From: Rhizobium sp. CB3090
GTDB lineage: Bacteria; Pseudomonadota; Alphaproteobacteria; Rhizobiales; Rhizobiaceae
NCBI RefSeq assembly: GCF_029714285.1
Contig: NZ_CP121662.1
Coordinates: forward strand, 1,488,001 to 1,552,000
DNA length: 64,000 nt
Direction: 5' to 3'
The position numbers and the translations under genes were made by a program. This document shows, piece by piece, positions 11,114 to 15,416 of this stretch (the stretch's first letter is position 1; each line of letters opens with the position of its first letter). The notes below the pieces were generated by a model. The model was not told the origin of the DNA and did not search any database. It saw nothing but the letters and a program-made list of their open reading frames with translations.

Positions 11114-12241
11114 ATGGACGTACGCGCCGCCGTAGCCGTTGCCGCCGGTAAACCGTTGGAAATCATGACCGTTCAGCTCGATGGCCCGAGGGCCGGTGAG
11201 GTGCTGGTCGAGGTCAAGGCGACCGGCATTTGCCATACCGACGATTTCACGCTGTCGGGCGCCGATCCGGAGGGCCTGTTTCCGGCGATCCTCGGCCATG
11301 AAGGCGCCGGCATCGTCGTCGATGTCGGCCCCGGTGTGACCTCCGTCAAGAAGGGCGATCACGTCATTCCGCTTTATACGCCCGAATGCCGCGAATGCCC
11401 CTCCTGTCTCAGCCGCAAGACCAATCTCTGCACGGCGATCCGCTCCACCCAAGGCCAAGGCCTGATGCCGGATGGAACGTCGCGCTTCTCGATCGGCAAG
11501 GACAAGATCCATCACTATATGGGCTGCTCGACCTTTGCCAATTATACGGTGCTGCCGGAGATTGCCGTTGCCAAGGTCAACCCGGACGCCCCCTTCGACA
11601 AGATCTGCTATATCGGCTGCGGCGTCACCACCGGCATCGGCGCCGTCATCAACACCGCCAAGGTGGAGATCGGTTCAACCGCGGTCGTCTTCGGCCTCGG
11701 CGGCATCGGTCTCAACGTCATCCAGGGCCTGAAGCTGGCAGGGGCCGACATGATCATCGGTGTCGATCTCAACAATGACAAGAAGGAATGGGGCGAACGC
11801 TTCGGCATGACGCATTTCGTCAATCCGAAGGAAATCGGCGACGACATCGTGCCTTACCTCGTCAATATGACGAAGCGCGGTGCCGACCAGATCGGCGGAG
11901 CGGATTACACCTTCGACTGCACGGGCAATACCAAGGTGATGCGCCAGGCGCTGGAAGCCTCGCATCGCGGCTGGGGCAAATCGGTGGTCATCGGCGTTGC
12001 CGGCGCCGGCCAGGAGATTGCGACGCGGCCGTTCCAGCTCGTCACCGGCCGCACCTGGATGGGCACGGCCTTCGGCGGCGCGCGCGGCCGCACCGATGTC
12101 CCGAAGATCGTCGACTGGTACATGGAAGGCAAGATCCAGATCGATCCGATGATCACCCACACCATGCCGCTCGAAGACATCAACAAGGGTTTTGAGCTGA
12201 TGCATTCGGGCGAGAGCATCCGCAGCGTGGTGCTTTACTAG
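11114..12241 (+). CDS. adhI: S-(hydroxymethyl)glutathione dehydrogenase / class III alcohol dehydrogenase
   Basis: 375 residues. It oxidises the glutathione adduct of formaldehyde with NAD+ to S-formylglutathione. Catalytic zinc ligands are Cys40 (GICHTD), His62 (GHEGAG) and Cys169 (YIGCGV). Structural zinc cysteines are 92, 95, 98 and 106 (ECRECPSC...C). The nucleotide fold is GLGGIG (194-199). RBS GAGGGAGG precedes the ATG. The last base of its stop codon (TAG, 12239-12241) is the first base of the inserted IS element; without the IS the stop would read TAA and the protein would be unchanged. The next pathway genes, gfa and fghA, follow beyond the IS. Confidence 0.95.
   Translation: MDVRAAVAVAAGKPLEIMTVQLDGPRAGEVLVEVKATGICHTDDFTLSGADPEGLFPAILGHEGAGIVVDVGPGVTSVKKGDHVIPLYTPECRECPSCLSRKTNLCTAIRSTQGQGLMPDGTSRFSIGKDKIHHYMGCSTFANYTVLPEIAVAKVNPDAPFDKICYIGCGVTTGIGAVINTAKVEIGSTAVVFGLGGIGLNVIQGLKLAGADMIIGVDLNNDKKEWGERFGMTHFVNPKEIGDDIVPYLVNMTKRGADQIGGADYTFDCTGNTKVMRQALEASHRGWGKSVVIGVAGAGQEIATRPFQLVTGRTWMGTAFGGARGRTDVPKIVDWYMEGKIQIDPMITHTMPLEDINKGFELMHSGESIRSVVLY
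12239..12240. repeat. Left copy of the 2-bp target duplication (TA)
   Basis: TA directly precedes the left terminal repeat, and an identical TA follows the right terminal repeat at 13103-13104. Two-base TA duplications are usual for this IS5 subgroup. Confidence 0.6.
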
Positions 12242-13102
12242 GCTGTAGTGACGAATTAAGGAATTGGGGTTCCGTTTTGGGAGCAAATCAGATTCAACGC
12301 TGACTTTTGGAGGTCGGCGATGGATGGTGAAATTCTTCGAGATGATCAATGGGAGCGTCTGAAGCCGTTCGTTCCCGGCGGGCGCAAAGGTCGACGCGGC
12401 CCCCGCAGCGACGGGCGCCGGTTCTTCGATGCGATCTTGTGGCTGGCCCGATCCGGTGCACGTTGGCGTGACTTGCCTGAAGATCGTTTCGGCCCCTATC
12501 AGACGGTCAAACGACGTTACTATCGCTGGATCGAACAGGGCGTATTCGACCGGATTTTCGAAGCGGTGACAGCCGCTCCGGACATGGAGTGGCTGTCGAT
12601 CGATGCCACGGTGATCCGGGCGCAGGCACAAGCGGCTGGCGGGCGCCGTAAAAGGGGGGAACGAAAGCCCAGGCTCTCGGTCGTTCCCGTGGCGGATTTG
12701 GTAGCAAAATCCATGCAGTAGTGGATGCACTCGGGCTACCGGTTCGTTTCCACCTTGGCCCAGGCCAGCAGAACGATATGGCGCCGGCCTGTGATCTCGT
12801 GCGGGGATTGCCTGCCAACCAGGTGCTCGCTGACCGCGCCTACGATGCCGACAGCCTGCACGACATCATCCTTGACCAAGGCGGCGAGCCGGTCATCCCG
12901 CCGCGTCGTCATCGCAAGTATCAGCATGGCTATGATCGCATTGCTTATAAACAGCGATGGGGCATCGAGAGCTTCTTTGCCAAGCTCAAACAGTGGCGTC
13001 GCATCGCAACGCGATACGACAAACTCGCCGCCAACTTCCTCGGCTTCATCAAGATCGCAAGCATCATGATCTGGCTTAAATAGTTAAATCGTCACCACAG
13101 CC
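12241..13102 (+). mobile_element. IS5-family insertion sequence (IS427-like), 862 bp, apparently complete
   Basis: Ends are 19-bp imperfect inverted repeats: GGCTGTAGTGACGAATTAA at 12241-12259 and the complement of GGCTGTGGTGACGATTTAA at 13084-13102 (17 of 19 match). TA flanks both sides. It carries a two-frame DDE transposase joined by a -1 frameshift at a run A4G6. Both terminal repeats and all catalytic residues are present, so the copy may be active. It sits between the formaldehyde dehydrogenase gene and gfa, exactly at the stop codon. Confidence 0.9.
12320..13083 (+). CDS. IS5-family transposase, made by programmed -1 frameshift (OrfA 12320-12721, OrfB frame to 13083)
   Basis: OrfA (133 codons) starts MDGEILRDDQWERLKPFVPG, typical of the IS427/DUF4096 type, and contains the first catalytic Asp in EWLSIDATVIRA. 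In the -1 frame the sequence continues KAQALGRSRGGFGSKIHAVVDALGLPVRF, with the second Asp in VLADRAYDADSL and the Glu in RWGIESFFAKLKQWRRIATRYDK. The two frames meet at AAAAGGGGGG (12650-12659), a slippery run allowing a shift from frame 2 to frame 1. In the shifted frame a TAA lies just before the run, so shifting must occur there. The fused product would be about 254 residues. Confidence 0.88.
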
Positions 13103-13206
13103 TAATGCATGTCGCGCAAAAGTGTGCGGCGGTTTTGCGAAAACGGCATGCACAAACAACAATCTAAAGCATGGGAGCGAATCTGAAAGATCGCGACGAG
13201 CTTTAA
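13103..13206. repeat. Palindromic intergenic repeat (RIME-like, two hairpin modules)
   Basis: Module 1: TGCATG (13106-13111) pairs with CATGCA (13147-13152), and inside it CGCAAAA (13115-13121) pairs with TTTTGCG (13133-13139). Module 2: TAAAGC (13165-13170) pairs with GCTTTA (13200-13205). The sequence resembles a repeat very common between genes in Rhizobium. It begins exactly at the right end of the IS, so before insertion it directly followed the dehydrogenase stop codon. Confidence 0.65.
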
Positions 13207-13322
13207 GGCGATCGCCAATCCAGATATGCGGGAGAATCTTGCACGACTTTGAATGGCACGCGGCCTTTCCAAATCGATACTGATTTGGGGGCCGTGGGCA
13301 ACCAAGGAGGAGGAAGCTGAAC

Positions 13323-13898
13323 ATGCCAAGTCAAGTATCGATACATCCGGCGCTCGACGGCGGAGTGAAGGCCGGACAGGCGAATTTCAGCGGTGGGACG
13401 CTGGTTTGCGCCTGCACCGATCGCCCCGTCAAAGTCGCCATCACCGGTGGGATTGCTCATAACCACGCCTGCGGCTGCACGAAATGCTGGAAGCCGAATG
13501 GCGCGGCCTTTTCGATCGTTGCCGTCACGCCGCATGAAAACGTCAAGGTCCTGGAAAACGGCGATAAGCTTGCGGTCGTGGATCCTGACGCCTTGATCCA
13601 GCGGCACGCCTGCAAGGAGTGCGGCGTGCACATGTACGGCCCGGTAGAGCGCGATCACGCCTTCAAGGGCCTGGATTTCATTCATCCCGAACGTTTTCAG
13701 GAAAGCGGCTGGCCCGAACCCACCTTCGCCGCATTCGTCTCGTCGATCATCGAGTCGGGAACGCCTCCATCTGCCATGGCCTCCGTTCGCAGCCGGCTGA
13801 AGGAGCTTCGCCTTGAGCCCTACGACTGCCTGAACCCGACGCTTATGGATGTTCTCGCAACCTGGGCTGCGAAAAAAGCGGGCACATTAAGGGAATAA
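13323..13898 (+). CDS. gfa: S-(hydroxymethyl)glutathione synthase (glutathione-dependent formaldehyde-activating enzyme)
   Basis: A 191-residue zinc protein that speeds addition of formaldehyde to glutathione, the step before the class III dehydrogenase. Zinc cysteines are visible as Cys29/Cys31 (VCAC), Cys50/52/55 (CGCTKC) and Cys97/Cys100 (CKEC). RBS AGGAGGAGG precedes the ATG. The IS and a palindromic repeat now separate it from the dehydrogenase gene upstream, so it may depend on its own promoter or one supplied by the IS. A YaiI-family gene and fghA follow on the same strand. Confidence 0.93.
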
Positions 13899-13987
13899 GT
13901 CTGGCCACTGCTGGCGGACTTCGCTAAACCGCGACTGCGCGTTCGGCCGGATGCGCAGCGCTCTCCAATGAAGCAATTTCTGCTCCC

Positions 13988-14452
13988 ATGATCTACGTCG
14001 ATGCCGATGCCTGTCCGGTGAAGCCGGAAATCTTGAAAGTGGCCGAGCGCCACGGCATCGAGGTGACGCTCGTCGCCAATTCTGGCCTCCGCCCGTCGCG
14101 CGATCCGATGGTGAAAAACATCATCGTCTCCAACGCTTTCGACGCCGCCGACAATTGGATCGCCGAACATGCCGGTCCTGGCGATATCGTCGTAACGGCC
14201 GATGTGCCGCTGGCCGGCCGTTGCGTCGCCTCCGGCGCGCTGGTGACCGGACCGACTGGCCGTGTTTTCGACAATGCCAATATCGGCATGGTCACCGCGA
14301 TGCGCGATCTTGGCGCACATCTGCGCGAGACCGGCGAAAGCAAAGGCTACAACGCCGCTTTCTCGCCACGCGACCGCTCCGCTTTTCTCGAAACCTTCGA
14401 TCGCCTTTGCCGGCGTGCCAAAGCTCATAATTCGCCTGGAGGTCAGTCTTGA
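13988..14452 (+). CDS. YaiI/YqxD (DUF188, UPF0178) family protein
   Basis: A 154-residue soluble protein with the family start MIYVDADACPVKPEILKVAERHG and the conserved segments PGDIVVTADVPLAGRCV and SPRDRSAFLETFDRLCRR. The early DADACPV motif suggests a PIN-like acidic metal site. The biochemical function of the family is not established. Its stop overlaps the TTG start of fghA by 4 bp, so the two are probably translationally coupled. This association with formaldehyde detoxification may be only positional. Confidence 0.88.
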   Translation: MIYVDADACPVKPEILKVAERHGIEVTLVANSGLRPSRDPMVKNIIVSNAFDAADNWIAEHAGPGDIVVTADVPLAGRCVASGALVTGPTGRVFDNANIGMVTAMRDLGAHLRETGESKGYNAAFSPRDRSAFLETFDRLCRRAKAHNSPGGQS

Positions 14453-15282
14453 ACATCATTTCCCAGAACACCGCTTTCGGCGGCATGCAGGGTGTCTTTT
14501 CGCATGAATCGGAAGCTTGCCAGTGCGAGATGACCTTCGCGGTTTTCGTGCCGCCGCAGGCGATCAAGGAGCCCTGCCCGGTCGTCTGGTATCTCTCTGG
14601 CCTCACCTGCACCCATGCCAATGTGATGGAAAAAGGCGAATATCGCCGCATGGCGGCCGAACTTGGCCTGATCGTTGTCTGCCCGGATACCAGCCCGCGC
14701 GGCAATGACGTTCCTGACGAATTGACCAATTGGCAGATGGGCAAAGGCGCCGGCTTCTATCTCGACGCCACCGAAGAGCCTTGGGCCGAGAACTATAAGA
14801 TGTACACCTACATCACCGCGGAACTGCCAGCCCTCGTCAGCCAGCAATTCCGCATGGACATGAGCCGGCAAGGCATTTTCGGCCATTCCATGGGCGGCCA
14901 TGGCGCAATGACGATTGCTCTGAAAAATCCGGATCGTTTCAAGAGCTGCTCTGCCTTCGCCCCGATCGTGCAGCCCTCGACCGCCGATTGGTCGGCGCCG
15001 GCGCTTGAAAAGTATCTTGGTGCCGACAAGACCGCATGGCGGAAATACGACGCCTGCGCATTGGTCGAGGACGGGGCGCGCTTTCCGGAATTCCTGATCG
15101 ACCAAGGCAAGGCTGATAGCTTCCTTGAAACAGGTCTGCGTCCATGGTTGTTCGAAGAGGCGATCAAAGACACCGGCATCGGCCTGACACTGCGCATGCA
15201 CGAGCGCTACGATCACTCCTACTATTTCATCTCCAGCTTCATGGACGATCATCTGAAGTGGCATGCCGAACGGCTGGCATGA
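14449..15282 (+). CDS. fghA: S-formylglutathione hydrolase
   Basis: 277 residues. It hydrolyses S-formylglutathione to formate and glutathione, the last step of the pathway begun by Gfa and AdhI. The nucleophile is Ser147 in GHSMGG, with the acid near Asp223 (IDQGKAD) and His256 (RYDHSYYF). Family segments YLSGLTCTHANVMEK and DTSPRGNDVPD are present. The start is TTG 14449 behind GGAGGT, overlapping the previous gene by 4 bp. Length and motifs are typical of the esterase D family. Confidence 0.95.
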   Translation: MNIISQNTAFGGMQGVFSHESEACQCEMTFAVFVPPQAIKEPCPVVWYLSGLTCTHANVMEKGEYRRMAAELGLIVVCPDTSPRGNDVPDELTNWQMGKGAGFYLDATEEPWAENYKMYTYITAELPALVSQQFRMDMSRQGIFGHSMGGHGAMTIALKNPDRFKSCSAFAPIVQPSTADWSAPALEKYLGADKTAWRKYDACALVEDGARFPEFLIDQGKADSFLETGLRPWLFEEAIKDTGIGLTLRMHERYDHSYYFISSFMDDHLKWHAERLA

Positions 15283-15352
15283 AACGGGTGGCATAGCAGC
15301 CATGCCGTCCCCAACTTGAAAGAGCGATTCAACTGAGGCATATATTTCCCCG

Positions 15353-15416
15353 CGCAGACGACTGCGGCGGGCGGCACTTGATTGCCGGCCATAAGACACC
15401 GCGGGGACGGCCTTGC
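15353..15416 (+). promoter_or_regulatory. Guanidine-II (mini-ykkC) riboswitch upstream of sugE
   Basis: Two small hairpins each carry an ACGR tetraloop. P1 is CGCAG-ACGA-CTGCG (15353-15366). P2 is GCGGGG-ACGG-CCTTGC (15401-15416, with two G-U pairs). They are joined by a 34-nt linker, and P2 lies just upstream of the GGGAG ribosome site and the sugE start at 15436. This is the defining architecture of mini-ykkC RNAs, which bind guanidinium and in proteobacteria typically precede SugE/Gdx-type exporters. Ligand binding would be expected to free the ribosome site. Confidence 0.85.

Follow-up and report, generated by a model that had tools for sequence, protein, structure and literature searches.

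Several described repeat classes come close to the element found downstream of the Rhizobium sp. CB3090 adh gene. RUP and the Correia/NEMIS MITEs are dispersed elements shorter than 200 bp, with TA at both ends and target duplication, and an IS630 link has been proposed for RUP (PMC2229807). GTAG REPs contribute the TAG with which neighboring ORFs end (PMC3733652), and rhizobial genomes contain dozens of intergenic repeats without known function, according to PMC2573895. The 99-bp palindromic repeat described here, termed family 1, shares size, dispersion, terminal TA and target duplication with the MITEs, but it differs from them in its YTAR sites, its exact docking on stop codons and its short, imperfect terminal repeats. 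Like the GTAG REPs, it is a palindromic repeat whose terminus supplies the stop codon of the neighboring gene; these REPs measure only 20-40 bp, whereas family 1 is 99 bp long, duplicates TA and occupies sites that relatives have empty. Like the rhizobial repeats of PMC2573895, it occurs between genes in dozens of copies. Stop-supplying REPs and TA-duplicating bacterial MITEs are already known (PMC3733652, PMC2229807). Among the open-access literature matches listed, none describes a 99-bp YTAR repeat that occupies stops at roughly half of its clean sites, has empty counterparts in relatives and shares one of these stops with a second, nested element; the defining 1995 paper on the rhizobial mosaic element (Osteras) stands outside this comparison.

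The second element at the adh locus belongs to the IS5 family. Its closest described relatives form the IS427 group, with members of about 830-865 bp that mostly duplicate 2 bp of target, some of them having two overlapping ORFs, a frameshift motif and a complete DDE only in the fusion (PMC3281130). We propose, with a probability of about 0.88, that the adh stop codon has received two nested insertions, the repeat and then the IS, the protein remaining unchanged both times.

The adh stop codon and its proposed nested insertions

The features that bear on this proposal lie as follows in the window, by which we mean the whole stretch of 64,000 nucleotides analyzed.

11114..12241, + strand: adh, S-(hydroxymethyl)glutathione dehydrogenase / class III alcohol dehydrogenase, at present ending in TAG (12239-12241)
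12239..12240, no strand: left TA, belonging to the adh stop codon
12241..13102, + strand: IS5-family (IS427-like) insertion sequence, 862 bp
12241..12259, + strand: left terminal inverted repeat of the IS, read from the sequence
12320..12721, + strand: transposase ORF A, covering the N-terminal half of the IS5 profile (DUF4096)
12650..12659, + strand: A4G6 run, candidate -1 frameshift site in the ORF overlap
12652..13083, + strand: frame of transposase ORF B, with the DDE domain (C-terminal half) and its first listed start codon at 12721
13084..13102, - strand: right terminal inverted repeat of the IS, read from the sequence
13103..13104, no strand: TA common to IS and repeat (right IS duplicate, left repeat flank)
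13105..13203, + strand: 99-bp palindromic mobile repeat (family 1), whose first base, A, would have restored a TAA stop prior to the IS insertion
13204..13205, no strand: right TA duplicate of the repeat
13206..13255, + strand: first part of the flank that ancestrally lay downstream of adh (AGGCGATCGCC...); it matches genomes G083 and G013 directly 3' of the adh TA
13256..13299, + strand: conserved hairpin of the gfa leader, immediately 5' of the ribosome-binding site
13323..13898, + strand: gfa, S-(hydroxymethyl)glutathione synthase (TIGR02820)
13988..14452, + strand: YaiI/YqxD family gene (DUF188)
14449..15282, + strand: fghA, S-formylglutathione hydrolase (TIGR02821)

The original prediction placed the IS exactly in the adh stop codon, and this placement holds: the IS (12241-13102) lies between TA 12239-12240 and TA 13103-13104. 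Its further statements that the dehydrogenase is unchanged, that the first G of the IS turned TAA into TAG and that gfa and fghA were moved away from adh are borne out as well. The 375-aa ORF is intact and ends in TAG, and its product scores 589.7 bits against TIGR02818 (cut-off, 543.95). Across 127 distinct contexts from 139 loci, our own included, adh ends in TGA 98 times, in TAA 20 times and in TAG 9 times; a TAA ancestor for the window is supported by G083 and G013, which read TAC TAA.

The IS ends, GGCTGTAGTGACGAATTAA and GGCTGTGGTGACGATTTAA, match at 17 of 19 positions, and both ORFs exceed the NF033580 (IS5) cut-off of 110, with 127.8 and 126.1 bits. From this anatomy, a -1 shift at the A4G6 run is predicted to yield a fused transposase of 255 aa. 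The element is of IS427-group size (862 bp), duplicates TA and has two overlapping ORFs with a putative frameshift motif. Its length, 2-bp duplication, ORF layout and IS5 transposase profile make it a putative member of the ISRel11/IS427 group. The genome carries five full copies, 0-1 differences apart, and a sixth at 83%; such near-identity among the five indicates that the IS moved recently. All six are bounded as CTA-IS-TA(A/G), with TA duplicated; since every copy shows the same edges, the boundaries are not due to chance. With three candidates scored per genome, at least 13 of 148 genus genomes (our own included) contain a match at E <= 1e-100, and the best match among those scored in the 147 other genomes reaches 87%; plasmid copies annotated as ISRel11 are about 85% identical. 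Separately, IS positions 20-55 (36 bases) match at 94% within IS630-type elements of the same genome, near their ends (L008 and L009, G000:C2:1719233-1719268 and C1:1057063-1057098), a similarity across different IS families.

The relatives show what preceded these insertions. In G083 and G013, this site reads TACTAAGGCG (TAC TAA GGCG), with neither repeat nor IS, and the window counterpart is TACTA...TTTAAGGCG. The orthologous gaps read TACTAAGGCGGTC and TACTAAGGCGTTCGCCAATC, and the window reads TACTA[IS]TA[repeat]TAAGGCGATCGCCAATC; G134 and G018 have TGA as the adh stop in the same place. The distances agree with this alignment. From the last adh codon to gfa there are now 1085 nt, and subtracting 864 (IS plus TA) and 101 (repeat plus TA) leaves 120, against 107-138 nt in relatives without inserts (G083, 121; G134, 120; G013, 138). 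One more distant locus (L120) has a gap of 52.

Starting from TAC TA^A GGCG, two unrelated TA-duplicating elements would thus have hit the same stop twice in succession. The 99-bp MITE-like repeat would first have entered the TA, doubling it and restoring TAA with its own first base, A. The IS427-like element would then have entered the left edge of the repeat (CTA^A, within CTA^ATGC), doubling the same TA and changing the stop to TAG with its first G. The comparison with relatives shows the first step, and the anatomy of the site shows the second. We place the repeat first because G083 and G013 read TAA GGCG at the flank that now follows the right TA of the repeat; the proposed order also draws on the apparent youth of the IS (0-1 differences) and the probably greater age of the repeat (copies down to about 76% identity).

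This reconstruction revises the empty site. The original prediction had restored TAC TAA TGC; the TAA stands, but the bases after it do not, since 13105-13203 is itself a mobile repeat and what was taken as the native downstream flank is not native. Accordingly, the IS-free allele expected from it, TACTAA followed by ATGCATGTC, was in none of the loci examined, and when the joined flanks were sought in 148 genus genomes, neither that allele nor the intermediate one (repeat, no IS) was matched over its full length; TACTAATGCATG was absent from all loci examined for the intermediate. The nearest empty site in relatives is TACTAAGGCG of G083 and G013. The longest joined-flank matches in other genomes, in G026 and G086 (query 1-266, 88-89%), have an adh TGA stop directly followed by a related but different repeat and no IS (TACTGATGCATGTCGCCC and TACTGAGCGATGTCGCCC, loci L041 and L042). 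This repeat either docked independently at the same gene end or is an older relative of the window repeat; as it follows a TGA stop, docking is not confined to the TA of TAR stops.

Such repeated hits may be favored by the elements themselves. Their CTAR and YTAR targets would include some stop codons, and each insertion would create fresh YTA and TAR edges, open to further hits. The base following TA at the element ends is usually A in the repeat and G in the IS. Since both ends of both elements begin with a base needed after TA, the stop survives in either orientation (for family 1, TA plus A remakes TAA), and the insertion is tolerated.

Family 1 repeats at gene ends

A search with 13105-13200 gave at least 36 matches in the genome, some of them short (40 of 49 candidates scored). 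Nearly all well-matched copies begin after YTA or CTG and stop before TA(G/A). A 99-position model built from the genome's own copies was run on 100 loci, 30 of them own and 70 drawn from 136 matches in eight relatives. It recovered a full-length copy in 98 of these (28 own); the partial L096 and L097 were dropped. YTA and TAR flank 72 of the 98 copies on both sides (CTA/TAG, 40; TTA/TAG, 23; CTA/TAA, 9), and the other 26 lack perfect flanks of this kind. The pair TTA/TAA occurs in none of the 98, though TTAA makes up 238 of 854 sampled YTAR sites; the target may therefore need at least one C or G adjoining the TA.

Identity among copies goes down to about 76%. The terminal repeats, read by eye, are short and imperfect (ATGCATGTCGCGC versus AAGCTCGTCGCGA, 9/13; the variant AAGCATGTCGCG is closer), and the window copy, as RNA, is predicted to form a pair of hairpins (-34.7 kcal/mol; z, -3.3). 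The short dispersed copies and the target duplication evident from empty sites fit a bacterial MITE. Family 1 may be one of the rhizobial intergenic mosaic repeats (RIME).

Empty sites were sought by comparing the joined flanks of six further copies with 12 genomes. Three were clean: GGC TAG in G013 and G083 (L076), a single CTA^G in G103, G024 and G036 (L074) and TTA^G in G103 (L081). The L074 site has TCA or TTA variants in G134, G155 and G018, and at L078 the CTA of our genome corresponds to CTG or CGG in relatives. Among these 12 genomes, no relative had a clean empty site for L077, and L082 gave no full-length joined-flank match.

The transposase that moves family 1 is probably of IS630 type, because of the TA duplication and the YTAR target. 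No transposase was matched to family 1 when its ends were compared with the IS630 types A, B and C of the genome: its AAGC ends are not among them (A and B start with (T)TAGAGCG and C with ATACC; L399 is outside this comparison). A second repeat family of about 99 bp (family 2, TA-GAGCGGTTCAGCG...GGAATTGCTC-TA, with at least 40 matches, 40 of 109 candidates having been scored) has GAGCG...GCTC ends, and its terminal GAGCG is common to types A (2 copies) and B (4 copies), which match PF13358 and have the edges YTA-GAGCG...CGCTC-TA.

How often family 1 lies on stop codons was counted with a home-made codon-bias gene caller, trained on 464 kb of our genome (GC, 59.5%), and with a YTAR background drawn from this genome only. 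The 854 background sites in these 464 kb comprise 58 on stops, 419 intergenic and 377 in genes, so that stops make up 12% of the non-genic sites (58/477; 8-15% within motif classes). The empty sites of the 72 YTA/TAR copies were rebuilt and classified in the same way, using for the window copy the flank upstream of the IS. Stops account for 35 of them, with 36 intergenic sites and a single gene call (57 aa, weak score), and 33 of the 35 docked stops belong to genes of at least 130 aa. Our own genome contributes 11 stop and 10 intergenic sites (n = 21; p 2e-5 versus 58/477), and the other genomes contribute 24 stop sites, 26 intergenic sites and the one gene (n = 51); with orthologous insertions merged, 29 are on stops and 34 are intergenic (n = 63; p 1e-9). 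Sites within genes are avoided (0/21 own copies versus 377/854; p 6e-6). An earlier count on filled alleles had placed 45 of 98 copies on stops; there an in-gene insertion could mimic a stop, and the rebuilt-site count is preferred. The target motif by itself would thus predict far fewer copies on stop codons than family 1 has.

The exactness of docking can be followed in plasmids annotated by NCBI. We took 25 records at even steps among 403 with a match and opened 13 copies, one of them without an annotated gene. In 6 of the 12 annotated regions, a CDS ends exactly in the TAA of the repeat (H24, on both sides, H25, H31, H38, H39 and H41); this sample leaned to feature-listing records and H25 and H27 look like one locus, so that it speaks to exactness, not to rate. 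At L304 (G103:C5:249097-252199), two convergent genes of 423 and 498 aa end at the two edges of one copy, as if one CTAG common to both stops had been split into two. In the Rhizobium sp. TAL182 plasmid (L377:900-1030), a beta-N-acetylhexosaminidase gene has a family 1 copy on its stop codon, and an element annotated as IS630 directly adjoins the right TA of that copy; this is a second case of nesting.

Two accounts of this docking may be weighed. We tentatively consider, at somewhat short of even odds, that family 1 is specialized in stop codons: it would insert at YTAR, remake the stop in both orientations, be able to split a shared CTAG as at L304, supply ready-made 3' hairpins to genes with about half of its copies and offer, at its edges, safe landing pads for TA-targeting elements such as the IS here. 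Copies may be kept at gene 3' ends since their hairpins are harmless there or help to end or protect mRNAs. It is possible, if rather doubtful, that the YTAR target and the loss of insertions within genes account for the docking by themselves, without any advantage or dedicated targeting. The YTA/TAR flanks of 72/98 copies and the scarcity of rebuilt sites in gene calls (1/72, weak) agree with such a passive origin, yet stops, at 12% of the non-genic YTAR sites, occupy 35 of the 71 non-genic sites of the repeat.

Target sites of the IS

For the IS, 33 loci were read (6 own, 11 from elsewhere in the genus and 16 of 23 plasmid matches). After 4 partial ones were dropped, the remaining 29 represent 23 distinct sites: 19 CTA/TAG, 3 CTA/TAA and 1 TTA/TAG. 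Two are at predicted stops (L004 and L185), 18 are intergenic and 3 are in gene calls. Since 2 of 20 non-genic sites corresponds to the background rate, the IS has no special preference for stops, and its location in the adh stop is explained by its CTAR preference.

It may be asked whether the IS seeks the outer TA of palindromic repeats through hairpin-guided targeting, which would account for its place here. Three of the six own copies (L002, L003 and L004) lie exactly at such a TA, next to family 1 at the adh locus and to family 2 at L002 and L003, compared with 9 of 220 non-genic CTAR sites (p 0.002). In the full set of genomes, however, repeat edges are found at only 3 of 23 IS sites (p 0.09), a count based on repeat models from our own genome, which may miss diverged repeats elsewhere, and the CTAR preference by itself already makes repeat edges available to the IS. 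We consider guided targeting unlikely.

The gfa leader and gfa expression

The conserved hairpin upstream of gfa was examined in 27 aligned leaders, 24 of them distinct (30 loci, with L223 left out and 2 duplicates removed). Drawn by hand and then counted, it has 95.6% of cells paired, compared with 30-43% in slid controls; RNAalifold on the leaders gave a poor structure. Three pairs are changed on both sides, which 4 of 500 shuffles reach, and further pair types are no more numerous than in shuffles (200/500). Rfam gave no match up to E 1 in 11800-15400. The hairpin may serve as a regulatory leader of gfa.

In some relatives, other genes stand between the adh stop and this leader: a glyoxalase gene, a GNAT acetyltransferase gene or GNAT plus the toxin-antitoxin pair BrnT/BrnA (L030:1987-2424; L133:4125-5144; L063, L066, L126 and L130, the GNAT genes of these last four being assigned by resemblance only). 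The leader is retained where any of these sets fills the gap. Being conserved and kept alongside such genes, it suggests that gfa may well not depend on read-through from adh.

The lengthening of the gap from about 120 to 1085 nt could possibly alter gfa expression. An adaptive insertion, uncoupling gfa-fghA from adh or bringing a promoter, would find some support in this growth and in the strong promoters reported in elements of the IS903 group of the IS5 family, not of the IS427 group (PMC3281130). Against it, no sigma-70-like site was found between adh and gfa in a weak consensus scan for promoters and terminators (2 sites, 1.3 expected), gfa has its own conserved leader and the same gap holds other genes in some relatives. 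Moreover, a second adh (98%; G000:C2:1343470-1344594) is present on another replicon, about 5 kb from a gfa-like match, a gfa paralogue (G000:C2:1349376-1349610; 74% DNA identity over 235 nt), and any effect may therefore be buffered. An adaptive origin thus appears improbable. Least credible is a single chance insertion of the IS into a pristine adh stop with native DNA downstream, for although the IS, the TA duplication and the intact ORF match that picture exactly, the supposedly native 13105-13203 recurs in the genome (at least 36 matches) with TA...TA edges and is missing from the G083 and G013 orthologues, which read TACTAAGGCG.

The nested insertions proposed for the adh stop correct both the empty site predicted for this locus and the extent of its native DNA. 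They would also illustrate a route by which mobile DNA can enter dense genomes without breaking genes, through a target motif that overlaps stop codons and end bases that rebuild the stop. Such a route would explain why palindromic repeats can begin exactly at gene ends, and it predicts that many rhizobial mRNAs have their 3' ends determined by repeats of this kind.
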